From: Bifidobacteriaceae bacterium
GTDB taxonomy: Bacteria; Actinomycetota; Actinomycetes; Actinomycetales; WQXJ01
Reading direction: 5' to 3'
Assembly: GCA_031281585.1 (NCBI GenBank)
Contig: JAITFE010000020.1
Location: forward strand, 1 to 64,000
DNA: 64,000 bases
The notes below the pieces were generated by a model. That model had not been told where the DNA came from, did no database searches, and was given only the letters and a program-made list of their open reading frames with translations. Position 1 is the first letter of the stretch; each line of letters begins with the position of its first letter. Shown here piece by piece: positions 54,575-64,000 of the stretch. The position numbers and the translations under genes are program-made.

Positions 54575-54726
54575 TTGGCACCCCCGCGCACGCGGGGGCT
54601 GCTCGCCGGGGCGATCCCTCAGCACCCGCCAGAAACCTCTACCCCCGCACACGCGGGGAACTGCCTGGACCAGAGCCCAGCGCAAACCAACGACCCAACC
54701 TCTACCCCCGCACACGCGGGGCCGTT
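54575..54726 (-). CRISPR. Short decaying CRISPR array (3 repeats, 2 spacers) behind cas6e
   Basis: Repeats at 54575-54602 (degenerate, core CCCCCGCGCACGCGGGG), 54636-54664 (one extra A) and 54699-54726 (last 5 bases changed). Spacers are 33 nt (54603-54635) and 34 nt (54665-54698). The sequence is the reverse complement of the large array repeat, so this array should be read leftward, in the same direction as cas6e, whose stop is 43 bp away. The most altered repeat is the one at the far end from cas6e, as expected for a leader-distal repeat. Confidence 0.88.
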
Positions 54727-54769
54727 ACCGCCAAGCTGTCCCGCAGAGTAGGGCAGCGCTTTAGCGAGA

Positions 54770-55396
54770 CTATGCCTGGATAACCTCACCGTCTGGCGGC
54801 CCGATGAGCCTGACTAGCCCCATCCCGTATGGCTTTCCCCGACCAATTCCCTTCACTAGAGCCTCCGTTGCGGCGCGATGATCGATAACCTCCGCGACGC
54901 CGGAGAGGCGGACCCATGCAATTGGAGGTCGGTCCTGATAGCCAGATTCCTGTTCGCCGCAGATCGCGGCTGAGTCCGGGGCCATGAGCAGGCCATGGCA
55001 GGCCAGACGCGTCCGCGCCCATTGCTCTCGTTCCGCAAGGGGGATCGCCTGTGGTCGCCGCCGAACTCGAAGCTCGCGGGGCAACAGCGCGGGCCCGCCT
55101 GAGCCGTTGGCTTCTGCAGCCAGAATGACGCTGATCCGCATCGACCTGCCTGGCGATGGATTCCAACGGCGCGGCCCCCGCAAATGGAAGCCCTTGGGGA
55201 CTTTCGTCGGGGCGATCGTCGACTGGACGAACAGACTGTGCCCAACTACTTGGCACAGAACACCTGCGTAGCTGCGCGCGTTTGGGGCCGGGATCCGGTC
55301 TGGGAACAGGCTCATGCTCACGTCATGTATGCGCCGGCTGGTCCACGGTTCGTCCTGTGCCTTCGGCACCAGCACTAGCTGAATAAGGCTTCCCAA
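54770..55396 (-). CDS. cas6e: Cas6e-like crRNA-processing endoribonuclease
   Basis: 208 residues. The N-terminus IQLVLVPKAQDE, then RRIHDVSMSLFP, carries H24 where Cas6e has its catalytic His; LFVQSTIAP follows the first ferredoxin fold as in the family. The C-terminus has WVRLSGVAEVIDH and the glycine loop VKGIGRGKPYGMGLV (residues 181-195), matching the Cas6e ending GIGrgKafGcGLL. It should cut the pre-crRNA at the base of the CCCCGC/GCGGGG hairpin. Start is TTG with AGGAG 6 nt upstream. Cas6e belongs to type I-E, yet its divergent neighbours are of the Csb1/Csb2 type, and no cse1, cse2 or other type I-E gene is seen. Confidence 0.85.
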   Translation of the reverse strand: MGSLIQLVLVPKAQDEPWTSRRIHDVSMSLFPDRIPAPNARSYAGVLCQVVGHSLFVQSTIAPTKVPKGFHLRGPRRWNPSPGRSMRISVILAAEANGSGGPALLPRELRVRRRPQAIPLAEREQWARTRLACHGLLMAPDSAAICGEQESGYQDRPPIAWVRLSGVAEVIDHRAATEALVKGIGRGKPYGMGLVRLIGPPDGEVIQA

Positions 55397-55524
55397 GTCT
55401 GGCTCCTGACGACGGCACCGACGGCGATCCCAACTGAGTTGTTGGTTTACGAAACAGTTTACACATTGCGATGCACTACTGTTGCCTTGAAAGGCTGTCA
55501 GCCGCTATTGCCAAAGGAACCCCA
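55397..55524. promoter_or_regulatory. Divergent promoter region of the two cas units
   Basis: 128 bp between cas6e (leftward) and cas7 (rightward). An A+T-rich section at 55439-55470 holds GTTTAC twice with a 12-bp period, a possible regulator site or promoter. AGGAG (about 55403-55407, minus strand) and AAAGGA (55513-55518, plus strand) are the ribosome sites of the two first genes. Confidence 0.4.
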
Positions 55525-56877
55525 GTGACCGAGACATCTCTCTTCGCCGAACTCGCATCCGCGCTTGACCGGGGCGCGGTGGCGATCCGTTTCCGTGACC
55601 AGCTCGAGCCCACCGCGGGCCACCGACAACCATTTCAACCGGCCACCTATCTGGGCGATAGGGCACGTTCCTACGCGACATGGGCACAGGGCGTGGTGAA
55701 CCCGGACGGAACGGCCGCGTTCCACGGGGGGGAACGTCTGACCATCACCTGCGTGACAGTGGACTCGGAGCCAAGTCAGGCGAATCGCGCGGAATCTGGG
55801 ATCGCCGACCTTGTTGAACGCCAAGTGCTGGACCTTCCCAAGCTCGAGGTCATTGTCAATCCCGGCTGCACGCCGGAGCGGCCCGACACGGTGCCCGAGT
55901 TGGAGAGCATTCGCGGCGAACGGCGTTTCACCATCTTCGACACTCCCCATCGCGAGCAGGACCCGCTGTTTAGGTTCGGGCTGGTGCCCAGGGAAGAATT
56001 CGCCTTGGCGGAAACTGAGAAGAATGTCGCGGAACCTGTGCCCGGGTTCGTTCCGTTCGCCCGCACAAAGATTGGCCAATCGATCCTGACCGCGCCGGGA
56101 AACGACCTGTCCGCGCTGCTGCGCCACACGCCCGCTTCATTGGTGTTCGGCTTTTGGCACTCGTATGGCACTGGCCTCACGGCCGAGCGTGCGCGTCTGG
56201 CCAGGCGCTACACGTCAACCATAATAGCGCGTGACGCCCAGCCCGTGGTTGGTGGCACCGCGAAACGGGCGCTCTTCAATGAAGGCAAGGACGTTCAGCT
56301 AACGTTGAGCGACGACGACGACCTTCTGTTTGCTGTGGTGCCTCCTGAGCAGAAGGTCGACAAGACCGTGTCTGTTGGGAAACCCTCGTCGGTCGGGGCA
56401 GGCTCCATACTTGGGGAGTTTGGAGAACGTGGCTTCACCGCCGAAGTCATCGAGTGGATCTCCACCGTCAGTTTGCGCGGTTTTGCCCAGACACCGCTGG
56501 GCGAAGGGGTCAGCGCACAGCAGCGGCGCTCGGTGACCCTGGCCCTCGCCGTGCTGGCGATCGCAGGACGCGCGAGGGCCGATCTCTTCCTGCGGTCCGG
56601 TTGCGACTTGGTGCCGGTCCCAGGCACAAGCGTGATCGAAGCCATCCGCCATGATGGAAAGGCGGAGCGGCTGGAACTCGACCTGACTGACCAATCCTTG
56701 GGCGGGGCGCTAGCGGAAGCCAAGAAGAGTCTCGACGACGCCAGCAAGGGGGCTGGCAGGCAACTCTCGATTGGCGGCAAGGCGGACAGCGTCACAATGC
56801 GGCTATCGCCAGGTTACCGTGAGCTAATCGACGCCTCGAACGCCATACCATCGATTTTCAAAGGCGAAACTGACTAA
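55525..56877 (+). CDS. cas7: Type I-G/I-U Cas7 (Csb1 family)
   Basis: 450 residues from the GTG at 55525, chosen because AAAGGA lies 6 nt upstream; an ATG at 55471 has no ribosome site. Csb1-type backbone subunit: FQPATYLG near residue 40, TVDSEPSQANRAES (residues about 79-91; the family pattern is LVDSvqSQANRmE), PFARTKIGQSI and LVFGFWHSYGTG, then a Cys- and Gly-containing C-terminus. It would coat the crRNA in the Cascade. Overlaps the next gene by one base (TAATG). No recognisable RNA-cutting site. Confidence 0.82.
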   Translation: MTETSLFAELASALDRGAVAIRFRDQLEPTAGHRQPFQPATYLGDRARSYATWAQGVVNPDGTAAFHGGERLTITCVTVDSEPSQANRAESGIADLVERQVLDLPKLEVIVNPGCTPERPDTVPELESIRGERRFTIFDTPHREQDPLFRFGLVPREEFALAETEKNVAEPVPGFVPFARTKIGQSILTAPGNDLSALLRHTPASLVFGFWHSYGTGLTAERARLARRYTSTIIARDAQPVVGGTAKRALFNEGKDVQLTLSDDDDLLFAVVPPEQKVDKTVSVGKPSSVGAGSILGEFGERGFTAEVIEWISTVSLRGFAQTPLGEGVSAQQRRSVTLALAVLAIAGRARADLFLRSGCDLVPVPGTSVIEAIRHDGKAERLELDLTDQSLGGALAEAKKSLDDASKGAGRQLSIGGKADSVTMRLSPGYRELIDASNAIPSIFKGETD

Positions 56878-58184
56878 TGGCCGGCCCAGAACGGCCTGGC
56901 ATCATCCGCATCGATGTGCGCCTAATCGCAGGATTCTTTGACGGCGACATCTCGCCCGGTCGCCACGAGTGGCCTCCGTCGCCCTATCGGGTGTTCGCGG
57001 CTCTCAGAGCCGGTGCCGCAGGGCTGCGTCGAACAGAGTCGCCCGCAGCGGAACAGCGGGCGGTGGATGCGCTCCGGCGCCTCGAACTCGCTGGGCCGCC
57101 AACCATCCACGCTTCGAACGCCGTGGCGCACCGTCGAGACTCTTTTGTGCCTGTAATACCCGACTATGGCGGCACGGGCGTCAACGTGGTGGACGTGGGC
57201 AGGATGGATAACCGAGTGAAGGCCAATTCGTTCCCGGAAATCTCCACTTCCCGGGCGCTCAAGCCAGTTACACGCGTCGCCCCCGACGTGCCAATGGTCG
57301 CCTTTGACATCGAGACTCATGACTTGACGCACGATGACGTGCTGTGGCTTGACCGGGCTGCAGCCGAGGTTGGATATTTCGGGCGTTCTACTTCGCCCGC
57401 GATCGTGAGGGTGTGGACCGAGACCCCGCTGATCCGCGGCACGGTTGCGCATCGGCCGGGGCCCGGTCGGGCCCTGAACGTGTGGGGACCCGGCACACTG
57501 GCCGTTCTCGACGCCAAGCATGCGGCCTTCGCTTGGGGCGACGTGCCTTTTCGCGGCCGGCCGCCAACGGCGAGCGTCCATTACACCATGCCATTCGAGT
57601 CCTGGGAGCCAGTGGGCGAATCCCTCGTCACCTGGGATGTGCTCACGCCATCACGCGGGATCCTGGCGGCGCGCGGCGTCATCCGCGCCCACAGTCAGCT
57701 TGGTGTTCTGGCCGATCAGGCGCCTGCGAAGACCCAGTTGTGCCTGATCGCCAATGTGGGCACCAAATACGCCCGGGGGCAACTCGCGCTGGCTCTGTCC
57801 TGCGATTCAGCTGCTTCCCGAAACACCGTGGTTGGGCGGCTCCGGGAGCTCGGTTGGCTGCCTGACTCACGCGGAGGGTGGCTGCAGCGGCGCACGTGGA
57901 CCGCCTCGGCCCAGACGTTCGCATCGGCCGTGCCTTTCCGGTGCCCCGTCGGCTCGGCTGCCAAGGCGGAGGACCGAGCGCGCGAAATCCTGGGCCGGTG
58001 GGGCGAAATCGACCACCTGGCCATCAGCCGGCAGCCGTTTCTGCGAGGAGTAGAGCCTGTGCCGGATCGCCGGTTCTGGTTTGTCCTAGTGCGCTTCGCG
58101 GACGCTCTCGCCGAAACAGCTTTTCCGCGACGGCTTGGCCGATTCGACGGCACTCTCTATCCGATTGCTGAGAGGCAGCCGTGA
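56877..58184 (+). CDS. csb2: Type I-G/I-U Cas5 (Csb2 family), Cas6 half apparently reduced
   Basis: 435 residues. Csb2 hallmarks: HEWPPSPYRVFAALRAG (residues 30-46) and VGYFGRSTSPAIVRV (165-179). In I-G systems Csb2 is a Cas5-Cas6 fusion, usually about 500 residues, whose end has a Cas6-type glycine-rich loop. Here the end reads FPRRLGRFDGTLYPI with no clear G-rich loop, so the Cas6 half may be inactive or rebuilt, which would explain the separate cas6e. This is by-eye judgement. GTGA overlap with the Cas3 gene. Confidence 0.78.
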   Translation: MAGPERPGIIRIDVRLIAGFFDGDISPGRHEWPPSPYRVFAALRAGAAGLRRTESPAAEQRAVDALRRLELAGPPTIHASNAVAHRRDSFVPVIPDYGGTGVNVVDVGRMDNRVKANSFPEISTSRALKPVTRVAPDVPMVAFDIETHDLTHDDVLWLDRAAAEVGYFGRSTSPAIVRVWTETPLIRGTVAHRPGPGRALNVWGPGTLAVLDAKHAAFAWGDVPFRGRPPTASVHYTMPFESWEPVGESLVTWDVLTPSRGILAARGVIRAHSQLGVLADQAPAKTQLCLIANVGTKYARGQLALALSCDSAASRNTVVGRLRELGWLPDSRGGWLQRRTWTASAQTFASAVPFRCPVGSAAKAEDRAREILGRWGEIDHLAISRQPFLRGVEPVPDRRFWFVLVRFADALAETAFPRRLGRFDGTLYPIAERQP

Positions 58185-61100
58185 GCGATCTGGGGATTGT
58201 AGAGTTCGTGGAGTTCTTCCGGGCGGCCCACGGAGGCCACGACCCGTACAAGTGGCAGATAACGTTGGCTGACCGGGCCATCTACGGCGAATGGCCGCGT
58301 GAAATTGAGGTGCCTACCGGCCTGGGGAAGACCGCCGCCATAACCGCTGCGGTGTTTGCCATGGCCGCACGTGACGATTCTCCAACCAGGGTGGCATATG
58401 CGGTCAACAACCGCATGGTTGTGACTTCCGCGTTTGACCAGGTCTTGAGGCTTCAGCGACTTCTTGTGCGGCACTCAAACTCAAGCAACTCCGGGCCATC
58501 TTCCGGGGCCAATCCGGGTCACGACCAAGATCCGACCGGAGTTCTGGCGGAAGTGTCGCGTCGCCTGCAGGCCCGCGCAGGAATGTTCGGGACGCAGCTT
58601 TGCCTGGCCCCGCTGGTTGTGTCGCGGCTGCAGGGCGGCGAGATGAAGGACACCGAATGGAGGCGTTCCCCGACGGCCCCAACAGTCATTACTGGCACGA
58701 TTGACCAAATCGGGTCGCGCATGCTGTTCCGCGGTTATGGCACCTCAGAAAGAACCCGATCGCTAGAGGCGGGGCTCCTCGGCGAAGACTGCCTGGTCCT
58801 TCTTGACGAACCGCACCTCGCCGTGCCTTTCTTGGAAACCCTTGAATCCCTCAGCGCATACAGAAACCAGCTAGAGGCTTCGCATGAGAACGTGTGCATC
58901 TTGGGTGCCACATTGCCGGGCCGGTCGCGGTGTCTGATGGGTGCCGGAGCGGCGAGTGGGCACGAGCGCGCTTCCGCGCAGTTGGTCTTTGACGCCTCCG
59001 CGGAAGACCCGACAGGGCAGGTCAACCGCCTGATTCGCGTGCGCAAACCACTCCGAACTGTGAAAGCTCCCAAGGCGGCGATAATCGCCGCCTATGTTCG
59101 TGAGGTGCAACGCGCAGCCAATATGGGCAGGCGCCGCGTTGCCGTGATGGTCAACACCGTGGCGTTCGCAAGGGGCGTGTTTGAGGCGCTGCGGAAGGGC
59201 TTGGTCGCCGAGTCTTCGGGGGCATCGAAGCATCAAGTGGACGGTGTGTCGGACGAGGCGGATCCCCGGCCGGCGTTCCAATTCGAGTTGGCAATCGGCC
59301 GGGTGCGTCCGGACGACCGGCGACCCATCGCCGACAGGCTGAACCAGTGGTGTGGTCCGGACGCGGGCAGCGCGGCAAGCGCGGAGTCGCCGAATGAAGG
59401 CAATCCGGTGGTGGTGGTGGCGACCCAAACCCTGGAAGTCGGTGCCGACCTTAGCTTTGATCACGTCATCTCCGAAGCTGCTCCTTGGCCATCGCTGGTG
59501 CAGCGCGCCGGTCGGCTGCACCGCCGGGGCCTGGATAGGGCGGGCCACCAGCCCGCCGGTGAATTTGTTGTTATGTCGTTGTCGGAGGCCGGGGAACGCC
59601 ATCCCGCGTACGGCAAAGCCTCCAAAGAAACCTTCGACCAACTGCGCGCGTGGACTCGTGAGGGAGAAGCGGAAATCGGGTATTTCGGGATTGAAGAAGC
59701 GGCGCGCGCTGGTCGCTTCGGGGAGCAGTGCTACCCCGCTCCAACCAATGCCCCCATTCTGCTCGACGAGCATGTGGAGACCTGGCTCGTCACCGCCCCA
59801 GCGCTCTCGCCCGATTGCGACGTGCCCGTGGCACCCTTCCTTCACGGCGAACAAACAGCAGATGATGTGCGCATGGTTTGGCGCGACGGCATCGCGGATC
59901 TCCTGGCAAGTCGACGGGGCGCGGCGGCAGGAAGCGCGCAGAAGCCGTTCAGCGATGCCGACCTTGGCCTTGATGCCTTACCCGTGCGACCGGGCGAGGT
60001 GATCGAGATCCCCGTCAGTGCGGCGCGCGCTTTCCTGCGCGGAGCCAGAGCGGCCACGGCTTTCGTGGCCGACGACGTTACCGCCCTTGAGGAAGGGCAG
60101 GATGGCTCGGCGGCTCCTCCGGATGGCGCTCACAGGCCGGTCTTCCTCATCCGCGTCGGAGACAACTGGTCAAGGAATCTCGCCGACTTGCGTCCCGGCA
60201 GCCACGTCATGGTCGACTCGCGCGCTGGCGGGTTGCTTCCGGGCAGCGGTACGGGAGGCTCGCGCCAGTTTCTTGGCTGGGATCCCACGGCGACTGTCAA
60301 GGTGACAGATCTTGGGGACGGCGTGGACGGCATCGGAAACTGGCGTGTGCGTGTCTCCAGACTTGCGGCGAACGAGTTTGCAGGGCCATTTTCGCTCGAG
60401 GATGCCGAACGCGACGAGATCGGAAGGCTGCATGGTCTGGACATGTGCACGGGCGAGCAACGTATGGTGGCAGGCGACTCAGTGGCCGACGCGGTGGCCG
60501 AACGTCTTAGAGAACTCATCCAGGCCGCCTTCGACCGCGTTGTCGGCGGAACCGAATTTGCAGCATTGCGGGGCCGGCGCTGCGAAATCGTCTCAATGGG
60601 CGTAGACGGGAGCCCACTCAGGGACATTGTGGCGAGGTTTGCGATCGCCGGGTCAACCGCCGAGCTTGGTGGGCAGGTGGAGTTGAAGTCCCACGCAGAG
60701 CGAACTGCCGCCTTCGCCGCCGATGCTGTCGGCCGCATCGCGGAACCGAAATGGCGGACAGCGGCGGTGTTTGCCGCGTTGCACCACGATGACGGAAAGG
60801 CGCGCCCAGAATGGCAACAGTACGCCGTGGGCGCGAGGGTGACTACGCCCAGTCGGGTGATCGCCAAGTCGGGGCGTTCGCCAGAGCGCGGGGAAAAGCA
60901 AACAGACCGAGCCGGAAGTGGGCTCGAAAGCGGTTGGCGGCACGAGGCGCTCTCGGCCTTGATCGTGGAACGCGCTGTGGCCGGAGAGTCGCAAGAGGAT
61001 AGCGGGTTGCTGGTGGGGCAACGGCCGGACATGGGATCGTTGTGCGATCTGGTGGCCCACCTCGTAGGCAGCCACCACGGGTACGGAAGGCCTTTCTACG

Positions 61101-62359
61101 CGACGCATGTTGAAGGGCGGCCTGAGCAGGTGTTGAGCGATGCGAGGGCTGAACGCTTCCGGAAGCTTAACGCTGAGCTGGGCCCCTGGCGTCTGGCTCA
61201 CATGGAGGCAGTCGTGCGGCTTGCCGATTGGGCCGCTTCTTCGGTGCCAACCGAGATAGGGCAACTGGGCGACGCTAGAGAAGGGCAAGCATCTCCGGTG
61301 GCGACAGCTGGCCGCTGGTCGGTTTTGAAGGGCACGTTTGTCAATGATCGCTTGCGGCCGCCAGTCGAAGTGGCGCTAGCGGGGCTCGGAGGCTCGAATC
61401 TGGCAGACTACTGCGCGGCAGTCGGCATGCTGCGGGCACTGTCTCTGGCCGATCCCTCGGTCACGCTGCGGTGGGACAGCGCGCGAGGGCTGGACACAGT
61501 GCCGGTGGTCGCGTTGCCGGATGTTCTGCCGTCTGAGTTCGAGCAGGAGGGTCCGGCCGCCGCCGGTGTCACGGTCCTTGAGCGGGCGTTGGATGGCCTT
61601 GCCGTGTTCGCGCGGGCGAAGACGGCGGTGTTCGGCTCCAGCGCCGGAGGGTCAGAATCGGGAATCGCGGTCGAGGACTTCCGGCGGATGGCCGAGGCGG
61701 CACGGGTCACCGACTTGGGCGAGTTGCTGGCCCGACAGGACTGCTCGGAATGGTTGTCCGGCACTTACTGTGAGTGGGTTCGGCTCAAGAGCAAGCCTCA
61801 AAGTGTGGCGGCAAGTGTGGCTGCCATCTGGACATCCGGTCGGGGCGACGCGTGGGGGCAGATCAGCGACGCCGTCGGTCTTCGTGAGCGGGCGTCGGGT
61901 ACGGGCCGGGGAGCAACGGCAGCCAAGGAATTGATCAGGTCCGTGGGCGCGGCACTCACAGGGAAGTTCGGTGACCTCCACAGCTTGAGGGACCCAAGGG
62001 CCAAGCTGTTTGGCTTGGACCACGGATCGAGTTCGTTCAGGGCGAAGGCCGAACGCGACAGCGGGTATTACCCGTTGCTTGCCGCCTTCGCGCTGTACGG
62101 CTTCAACGGTCTATACCGTCCGCGCACCCGGTGGACGGCCACGGGGGCCCGCAGGCTAAAGGATGAACGCTTGGTCGAGGTGGACATGTGGTTGCACGCT
62201 TCTGCGATCCGTTACGCCACGCTGAGGCAAATCGCTCTGGTCGGACCCAAGCCAGTGTGGCTCGGTGAGGGTTCGGCCGTCAAGCGCTCCCGCGAGATCG
62301 TGACAAGCGGTCACAGCTCCTTTTTCGGGCCCGCATCACCACTGGACGCAAGGAGGTGA
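58181..62359 (+). CDS. cas3: Cas3 helicase-HD nuclease fused to a Cas8-like domain
   Basis: 1392 residues. Superfamily 2 helicase: motif I VPTGLGKT (K50), DEPH box (209-212), GATLPG, TQTLEVGADLSFD and QRAGRLHRRG (441-450). An HD nuclease follows instead of preceding the helicase, as in I-G Cas3: LHHDDGKARPEW (H868-D871), SHHGYGRP (H965-H966) and RLADWAAS (D1016). From about 1062 a further 330 residues begin VALAGLGGSNLADYCAAVGMLRAL, a start resembling Csx17/Csb3 (Cas8u) large subunits, and end with GYYPLLAAFALYGFNGLY-like sequence. So target recognition, unwinding and cutting may be in one chain. The Cas8 assignment is less sure than the Cas3 part. GTG start; the stop is 95 bp before the large array. 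Confidence 0.85.
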   Translation: MSDLGIVEFVEFFRAAHGGHDPYKWQITLADRAIYGEWPREIEVPTGLGKTAAITAAVFAMAARDDSPTRVAYAVNNRMVVTSAFDQVLRLQRLLVRHSNSSNSGPSSGANPGHDQDPTGVLAEVSRRLQARAGMFGTQLCLAPLVVSRLQGGEMKDTEWRRSPTAPTVITGTIDQIGSRMLFRGYGTSERTRSLEAGLLGEDCLVLLDEPHLAVPFLETLESLSAYRNQLEASHENVCILGATLPGRSRCLMGAGAASGHERASAQLVFDASAEDPTGQVNRLIRVRKPLRTVKAPKAAIIAAYVREVQRAANMGRRRVAVMVNTVAFARGVFEALRKGLVAESSGASKHQVDGVSDEADPRPAFQFELAIGRVRPDDRRPIADRLNQWCGPDAGSAASAESPNEGNPVVVVATQTLEVGADLSFDHVISEAAPWPSLVQRAGRLHRRGLDRAGHQPAGEFVVMSLSEAGERHPAYGKASKETFDQLRAWTREGEAEIGYFGIEEAARAGRFGEQCYPAPTNAPILLDEHVETWLVTAPALSPDCDVPVAPFLHGEQTADDVRMVWRDGIADLLASRRGAAAGSAQKPFSDADLGLDALPVRPGEVIEIPVSAARAFLRGARAATAFVADDVTALEEGQDGSAAPPDGAHRPVFLIRVGDNWSRNLADLRPGSHVMVDSRAGGLLPGSGTGGSRQFLGWDPTATVKVTDLGDGVDGIGNWRVRVSRLAANEFAGPFSLEDAERDEIGRLHGLDMCTGEQRMVAGDSVADAVAERLRELIQAAFDRVVGGTEFAALRGRRCEIVSMGVDGSPLRDIVARFAIAGSTAELGGQVELKSHAERTAAFAADAVGRIAEPKWRTAAVFAALHHDDGKARPEWQQYAVGARVTTPSRVIAKSGRSPERGEKQTDRAGSGLESGWRHEALSALIVERAVAGESQEDSGLLVGQRPDMGSLCDLVAHLVGSHHGYGRPFYATHVEGRPEQVLSDARAERFRKLNAELGPWRLAHMEAVVRLADWAASSVPTEIGQLGDAREGQASPVATAGRWSVLKGTFVNDRLRPPVEVALAGLGGSNLADYCAAVGMLRALSLADPSVTLRWDSARGLDTVPVVALPDVLPSEFEQEGPAAAGVTVLERALDGLAVFARAKTAVFGSSAGGSESGIAVEDFRRMAEAARVTDLGELLARQDCSEWLSGTYCEWVRLKSKPQSVAASVAAIWTSGRGDAWGQISDAVGLRERASGTGRGATAAKELIRSVGAALTGKFGDLHSLRDPRAKLFGLDHGSSSFRAKAERDSGYYPLLAAFALYGFNGLYRPRTRWTATGARRLKDERLVEVDMWLHASAIRYATLRQIALVGPKPVWLGEGSAVKRSREIVTSGHSSFFGPASPLDARR

Positions 62360-62454
62360 TCAGGTCGCCAGGATCACGCAGCCGTGAGGCCATGCTCAGC
62401 TCCGGAGTGGTCAAGAATTGGTAGATGCGTGAGCAAAACTGCACTTCAAGAAGG
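62360..62454 (+). promoter_or_regulatory. Leader of the large CRISPR array
   Basis: 95 bp between the cas3 stop and the first repeat. It is the only place for a leader if the array is read rightward. The 3' part (62413-62454) is richer in A than its surroundings. I see no convincing promoter; the cas transcript could run into the array. No clear match to the sequence beside the short array. Confidence 0.4.
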
Positions 62455-64000
62455 GCAGTCCCCGCGTGTGCGGGGGTAGAGGCGGTCCTCGATCAGGAGG
62501 ATGTTCCCTGACCACGCAGTCCCCGCGTGTGCGGGGGTAGAGGGTTGACACGGCGAGCGCAACCTGAGGAGGCGCAGCAGTCCCAGCGTGTGCGGGGGTA
62601 GAGGTCTTGGCCCAGCTCAATTCTGAGGCCATGGAGCGCAGTCCCCGCGTGTGCGGGGGTAGAGGCGACGGCGGCTCGCAGTTCACGCCGAGGCAGGTGC
62701 AGTCCCCGCGTGTGCGGGGGTAGAGGGTCCGGCAGACTCTCGCAGCCGCCGTCCCAGCCGCAGTCCCCGCGTGTGCGGGGGTAGAGGACCTGGCATGTGG
62801 TGCAGGGCGCGTGGCGGAAAGCAGTCCCCGCGTGTGCGGGGGTAGAGGCGGGTCGCTGGAGACCGTCTTCATCAAGTCCGGGCAGTCCCCGCGTGTGCGG
62901 GGGTAGAGGCGGGTCGCTGGAGACCGTCTTCATCAAGTCCGGGCAGTCCCCGCGTGTGCGGGGGTAGAGGCCAGGTTGACGTGATGGTCGCGTTCCGGGG
63001 CGTGCAGTCCCCGCGTGTGCGGGGGTAGAGGCACGGTCTGGGCGTCGCAGGGCGGGGACTTCCAGCAGTCCCCGCGTGTGCGGGGGTAGAGGCGTGGATT
63101 TGGAGCCGAAGTACGGGATGGGCGGGCAGTCCCCGCGTGTGCGGGGGTAGAGGCGGGCTGCACCTGCTCGGGACGCTGCTGCTGGCGCAGTCCCCGCGTG
63201 TGCGGGGGTAGAGGCATCGGCCGGGGCGCGATCTCGGTGAAGTGGCAGCAGTCCCCGCGTGTGCGGGGGTAGAGGGGACGGGATCGTCGGCCGGTGGCAG
63301 GCCGTGATGCAGTCCCCGCGTGTGCGGGGGTAGAGGCCGCTTCCCGCTCCCATGCCGCAGGCGTGCCCCGCAGTCCCCGCGTGTGCGGGGGTAGAGGCGG
63401 CGCCGGATGCGTTTTGGACTGGGTTTGGTCGCAGTCCCCGCGTGTGCGGGGGTAGAGGTGTGGATCCGGCGACCGTCGCGTCCTGGCTGAGGCAGTCCCC
63501 GCGTGTGCGGGGGTAGAGGGCGTGGACGGATCGGTGTCCAGCGGATGACGGCAGTCCCCGCGTGTGCGGGGGTAGAGGCATAGACATCTCGCACCGCGTC
63601 GGTGATACGGCGCAGTCCCCGCGTGTGCGGGGGTAGAGGCGTCCAACGCGGCGCGCGCGAGCTTGTCGGAACGCAGTCCCCGCGTGTGCGGGGGTAGAGG
63701 GTGGCAGCACCTCAAAGCGGCGCCGCCGGACTCGCAGTCCCCGCGTGTGCGGGGGTAGAGGGCCCTCAGCGGCACAACCGCCGCCAGGCCAGGTGCAGTC
63801 CCCGCGCGTGCGGGGGTAGAGGTCCACGTCGAAGACATGCGACATGACAAAAGCGGCAGTCCCCGCGTGTGCGGGGGTAGAGGGTCCGCCAACAACCGCA
63901 ACCACCTGAAGGGAACGCAGTCCCCGCGTGTGCGGGGGTAGAGGCCCGAGAGAGGACGCGGCCCCGAACACGGCCGCGCAGTCCCCGCGTGTGCGGGGGT
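62455..64000 (+). CRISPR. Large CRISPR array, 26 repeats, cut by the window end
   Basis: Repeats of 28 nt (5-nt GCAGT, stem CCCCGC, loop GTGT, stem GCGGGG, then GTAGAGG) and 33-nt spacers, with an exact 61-bp period. The first repeat is at 62455-62482 and the 26th starts at 63978 and runs past the end; 25 spacers are seen. Variants: repeat 3 (62577) has C to A in the stem, repeat 23 (63795) has T to C in the loop. Spacers 62849-62881 and 62910-62942 are identical. The 5-nt/stem/7-nt layout resembles type I-E repeats and suggests rightward transcription with GTAGAGG as handle. Confidence 0.98.

Follow-up and report, generated by a model that had tools for sequence, protein, structure and literature searches.

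The window analysed here is a 64,000-nucleotide stretch (positions 1 to 64,000 of contig C20, 80,408 nt in full) from a genome assembly of 3.98 Mb in 169 contigs (G000, 95% complete). At its far end lies a hybrid CRISPR locus in which genes for Csb1 (Cas7g), Csb2, Cas3g and a Cas6e-like protein adjoin an array of 34 type I-E-like repeats that continues past the end of the window (Table 1). Downstream of the array, the contig encodes a 368-residue protein, a HIT protein and a PhoH-like protein, in that order. An earlier note on this DNA, made from the sequence alone, had named a complete operon immediately past the window's end as something that might supply missing parts; no further cas genes were seen downstream on this contig, which runs into housekeeping genes instead. 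A separate, complete and ordinary type I-G system is located on another contig of the same assembly (C67, 66000-85000; locus L028); it has Cas4-Cas1 as well as its own extensive array of 36-nt repeats, and provides a useful internal control. In six other genomes of the genus, rsmE and the HIT gene share one stretch, either joined directly or separated solely by a relative of the gene for the 368-residue protein. None of the six has a CRISPR locus between rsmE and HIT, and the locus therefore seems to have been inserted between rsmE and the 368-residue protein gene.

Table 1. Features of the hybrid locus, in window coordinates.
Feature	Position	Strand	Remarks
Short CRISPR array	54580..54725 (approx.)	-	Two full repeats and a degenerate one, 3' of the Cas6e gene
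Cas6e-like crRNA endoribonuclease (predicted)	54770..55396	-	208 aa, TTG start
Csb1 (Cas7g) backbone subunit	55471..56877	+	Profile match; real start possibly downstream of the listed ATG
Csb2	56877..58184	+	Cas5 fold and Cas6-like domain
Cas3g part, helicase then HD	58181..61243	+	Residues 1-1021 of the fused protein
Cas8g domain (predicted)	61358..62359	+	Residues 1060-1392, at the C-terminus of Cas3
Presumed leader side of main array	62360..62454	+	Inferred: degenerate repeats sit at the opposite end
Main CRISPR array	62455..64000, onward to contig base 64493	+	28-nt repeats, 33-nt spacers

The layout sought in other genomes, I-G effectors together with Cas6e, was found again in Arthrobacter horti, Actinomyces oris and three genomes of the window's order (G481, G512 and G549). 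A scan of genome contigs with a Cas3 profile returned A. horti (L048) as the sole hybrid among the best 80 loci, while the A. oris system, which sits on a plasmid and whose processing protein is publicly annotated as a type I-E Cas6, was reached through a match to its array. In an order-wide sample of 396 genomes, G481, G512, G549 and the window's own genome are hybrid (about 1%); in a class sample of 395 genomes, no hybrid besides the window's genome appeared among the loci found with its Cas3, and viral contigs contained no relative of the hybrid system. Two architectures can be told apart. In the first, Cas3 is fused to Cas8g, and cas6e is either divergent (window and A. horti) or the first gene of a same-strand operon (G481). 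In the second, found in A. oris, G549 and G512, the order is cas3-cas8g-cas6e-csb1-csb2, with a separate Cas8g-like gene. The hybrid layout thus recurs in five lineages and is not an accident of one genome.

The 1392-residue Cas3 of the window matches TIGR02621 with 541.6 bits (cut-off 400), carries its HD domain C-terminal of the helicase, and retains the Walker A, DExH (as DEPH) and HD residues in its Cas3g part. The frame extends some 330 codons beyond the usual Cas3 part; in ordinary I-G loci a small Cas8g gene lies directly 3' of cas3. Compared with a profile of 21 separate Cas8g proteins, the C-terminus aligned over 42 columns only (probability 89%, E 2.2e-6). The modelled C-terminal domain (residues ~1060-1392; mean pLDDT 67.9, pTM 0.76) has Cas8g of 8b2x as its top PDB match (Z 13.0, rmsd 4.1, 245 residues aligned), followed by a type I-A Cascade chain (7tr6_C, Z 8.2), with all other entries below 4. 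According to this model, the protein is a Cas3-Cas8g fusion, which explains why the locus lacks a separate Cas8 gene. The claim that Cas8 is missing and that the Cascade is a smaller one accordingly falls, the 8b2x match ruling out Cas8g as a missing gene; the other clade keeps its Cas8g-like gene apart. Since Cas3 of Thioalkalivibrio sulfidiphilus attaches to its complex via Cas8g (PMC9638904), such a tether is mechanistically sensible. Cas3-Cas8g fusions also occur in two otherwise ordinary I-G loci (L043, 7323-11378, and L058, 4943-9013), and are therefore not peculiar to hybrids.

Csb1 (TIGR02570, 41.5 bits, cut-off 38) and Csb2 (TIGR02165, 80.3 bits, cut-off 45) likewise exceed their curated profile cut-offs, so that the I-G effector genes recognised in the earlier note, including a Cas3 with HD after the helicase, are borne out. 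The AlphaFold model of Csb2 (pLDDT 82.8) comprises a Cas5 fold (residues 6-241; 7tr6_P, Z 10.6; 4tvx_H, Z 9.6) and an RRM-like C-terminal domain. Nor is the Cas6 domain absent from this protein; its fold is predicted to be kept (about residues 255-430), and what the domain has lost are the glycine-rich motif and the conserved histidine. Ordinary Csb2 proteins have both an invariant histidine and the glycine-rich motif in this domain, and an alignment-free count found [GC]xxRxxGxG[LMF] in 75 of 76 ordinary Csb2 (the 76th deviates at the last letter alone), in none of the six hybrid Csb2 and in ~0.1% of shuffled sequences. Loss of an invariant arginine in all hybrids was also considered and set aside in favour of the motif count, because it depends on the alignment (one alignment matches the residue). 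The histidine is Phe in the window and Gln in G481 and is retained in the remaining four hybrids, which leaves room for residual Csb2 activity in hybrids. In T. sulfidiphilus, H503 in the C-terminal domain of Csb2 is required for cleavage (PMC9638904); it would presumably correspond to the invariant histidine of ordinary Csb2. The absence of the glycine-rich motif from all six hybrids suggests that crRNA processing has probably shifted from Csb2 to Cas6e.

The Cas6e-like protein scores 43.2 bits against Pfam CRISPR_assoc (cut-off 25) and matches T. fusca Cse3 (5u07, E 4.7e-11) in a PDB profile search; its 20.9 bits against NCBIfam casE lie below the cut-off of 45.2 and do not reach the equivalog level. 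Its His24 and C-terminal GIGRGKPYGMGL loop agree with Cas6e, and a histidine at the catalytic position and a glycine-rich C-terminal loop are present in all six hybrid proteins. With the hairpin repeats described below, this upholds the proposal that the processing parts are of I-E type. In a Cas6e tree, one branch (support 96/92) divides the six hybrid proteins from 16 I-E Cas6e, including those of I-E systems co-resident with hybrids; a genome with both systems would thus have two unlike Cas6e proteins, although long branches make the placement less sure. Between A. oris and G549, dN/dS is 0.089 for Cas6e and 0.25-0.39 for the other four genes, pointing to purifying selection on all five and to a Cas6e gene maintained as strictly as its partners. 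As a separate observation, a 666-aa frame in G050 (L192, 9634-11634) contains a Cas6e match and is perhaps Cas6e fused to another I-E protein.

The main array is built of the 28-nt repeat GCAGTCCCCGCGTGTGCGGGGGTAGAGG at 61-nt spacing (29 exact copies and five with one change), with an I-E-like CCCCGC...GCGGGG hairpin. This repeat is absent from the 58 relatives searched; the period of 61 holds in every hybrid array. Ordinary I-G loci have repeats of 36-38 nt wherever a complete repeat was resolved. In its hairpin part the hybrid repeat is identical to I-E repeats at up to 18 of 21 positions. Compared with the hybrid repeat of their own genome, the I-E repeats of G512 and G481 rank among the nearest (17/21) whereas A. 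horti's does not (9/21), and we therefore do not claim local copying of repeats. The handle behaves differently: I-G handles are mostly [AG]TTG[AC][AG]G (42 ordinary repeats) and I-E handles mostly [AG]TGATCC (13 repeats), and those of the window and A. oris (GTAGAGG), G512 (GTGGAGG) and A. horti (GTAAAGG) are all I-G-like, A. horti least, the log2 odds for I-G over I-E in these four lineages being, in ascending order, +6.0, +10.6, +15.5 and +15.5. That of G481 (GTAGGCC) leans towards I-E (-13.8). Judged by sequence, the hybrid repeats are chimeric, joining an I-E-like hairpin to an I-G-like handle in most lineages. The A. oris hybrid array (L151, 6385-5640) contains many altered repeats, in contrast to that of the window.

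The spacers carry a further mark of I-E. Their first base is C in 79 of 140 hybrid spacers (44.7 expected, p 2e-9, the 140 not all being independent), an excess shared with I-E arrays (601/912) and absent from I-G arrays (289/1063); locus L196 lacks the bias and trends in the opposite direction to the other hybrids. This pattern fits insertion by I-E Cas1-Cas2, and the hybrid spacers were probably acquired by that machinery in trans. Neither cas1 nor cas2 turned up in the vicinity of any hybrid locus (the A. horti contig stops soon after cas3); a weak cas2 match, in a reverse-strand frame apparently near the array end, was taken as spurious. Complete I-E systems are present elsewhere in the genomes of G512, G481 and A. 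horti. The single cas1 of the window's 95% complete assembly is the I-G cas4-cas1 on C67, and no cas1 was found on the A. oris hybrid plasmid (L151) or in G549, its 95% relative, so that, for the window's genome and G549, adaptation in trans would be impossible today unless genes are missing from the assemblies. In an I-G locus of G726 (L201, 12929-14449), the Cas4-Cas1 frame is broken into two adjacent frames. Within the window's array, spacers 7 and 8 are identical (62821-62942), and spacers 13 (63187) and 28 (contig base 64100) are variants of one target. Spacer 29 matches Streptomyces phage DnaE-like polymerase genes at 31 of 33 positions (flank CGA); as this is the sole fair match, and imperfect, we claim no PAM. 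Two exact spacer patterns had no match in viral sequences.

Taken as a whole, we consider it likely (probability about 0.78) that the locus is an interference system derived from type I-G whose crRNAs are no longer processed by the Cas6 domain of Csb2 but by a dedicated protein of the Cas6e family. What the sequences show are the identities of genes and domains, the composition of the repeats, a Csb2 stripped of its Cas6 motif, a layout that recurs and the bias in first spacer bases; from these we infer Cas6e cleavage, complex assembly, trans adaptation and immunity along the following lines. The array would be transcribed and Cas6e would cut every repeat at the base of the I-E-like hairpin, leaving a 7-8-nt handle, GTAGAGG(C), similar in most members to that of I-G, GTTGAGGC. 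On this crRNA, Csb1 and the Cas5 part of Csb2 would then assemble; Cas8g, bound to Cas3 through the fusion, would enter the complex and couple target recognition to DNA destruction, the spacers having probably been inserted by I-E Cas1-Cas2 acting in trans. More tentatively, at somewhat less than even odds, the Cas5-Cas6 fusion by which Csb2 is defined may have been split: Cas6e would hold the 3' hairpin and the Cas5 part would be free to cap an I-G-like 5' handle, the arrangement of other Cascades, while a repeat composed of an I-E hairpin and an I-G handle would let I-E Cas1-Cas2 supply spacers.

The locus could instead be a decaying or chance arrangement, with Cas6e and the I-E-like arrays as remnants of a vanished I-E system next to an unrelated I-G effector whose Csb2 still processes another array. 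Missing adaptation genes, the degenerate A. oris array and the separate I-G array in the window's genome would suit such decay, yet we regard it as very unlikely: the association is repeated in five lineages, the Cas6e gene of A. oris and of G512 lies within a same-strand operon, the Csb2 motif is gone in every hybrid, the window array is nearly uniform, the handle is mostly I-G-like rather than I-E-like, and hybrid Cas6e is distinct from its co-resident I-E counterparts. That the system is a crRNA-guided regulator, or inactive, gains something from the scarcity of convincing phage targets (the one spacer with 31/33 identity to Streptomyces phage polymerase genes), but is improbable given intact helicase and HD residues, purifying selection on the A. 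oris and G549 genes, and the variant and duplicated spacers, which suggest recent change in the array. A question of history rather than mechanism, which would be unchanged, is whether Cas6e was gained twice independently, once by the fused clade (window, A. horti and G481) and once by the unfused one (A. oris, G549 and G512). The Cas3 tree places the hybrids in two supported groups, but a single hybrid clade is not rejected (AU p 0.42) and the hybrid Cas6e proteins cluster together; two gains are possible, if rather doubtful.

The preferred reading, I-G-derived interference served by Cas6e, places the locus between two known types. Like type I-G (formerly I-U) of T. sulfidiphilus (PMC9638904), it has Csb1/Cas7g, a Csb2 with a Cas5 part, Cas3g with HD after the helicase, Cas8g and, in most hybrids, an I-G-like crRNA handle. 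It departs from I-G in a Csb2 without the Cas6 glycine-rich motif, a separate Cas6e, 28-nt I-E-like repeats as opposed to 36-37 nt, the absence of Cas4-Cas1 and Cas2 at the locus and, in one of the two hybrid clades, the Cas3-Cas8g fusion. With type I-E (Cascade of E. coli and T. fusca) it shares a Cas6e-family protein, hairpin repeats within the I-E range of 28-29 nt, the 61-nt period and the first-spacer-base bias. Unlike I-E, it lacks Cse1, Cse2, Cas7e and Cas5e, all other effector parts matching I-G, and its handle departs from the order's I-E handles in four of five hybrid lineages. The four genes thus do not fall into one described subtype. Of the earlier proposal of a subtype-level hybrid with its own minimal Cascade, the first part stands, with I-G effectors joined to I-E processing in five lineages, and the second does not, Cas8g being present. 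By sequence features, the system should be treated as a type I variant that has I-G effectors as its base and is neither plain I-G nor plain I-E.

This rare CRISPR branch illustrates how a core part of a CRISPR system can be swapped: processing enzyme and repeat hairpin appear to have been exchanged between subtypes with the effector-facing handle kept, and one adaptation module may feed two unlike effectors. Where the Cas5-like part of Csb2 sits in type I-G, and what it does, has been stated to be unresolved (PMC9638904), and a natural system with the Cas6 task on another protein would allow that part to be studied alone. In the open-licence literature searched, no I-G system is described as having a separate Cas6e, and the main text of the 2025 classification paper gave no match to I-G. 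NCBIfam NF049934 ('type I-G CRISPR-associated protein, Cas3-extension family') is silent on Cas6e and repeats, and the window's fused Cas8g domain does not reach this model; the separate Cas8g-like protein of hybrid G512 matches it weakly, so that the small Cas8g beside Cas3 is already catalogued.
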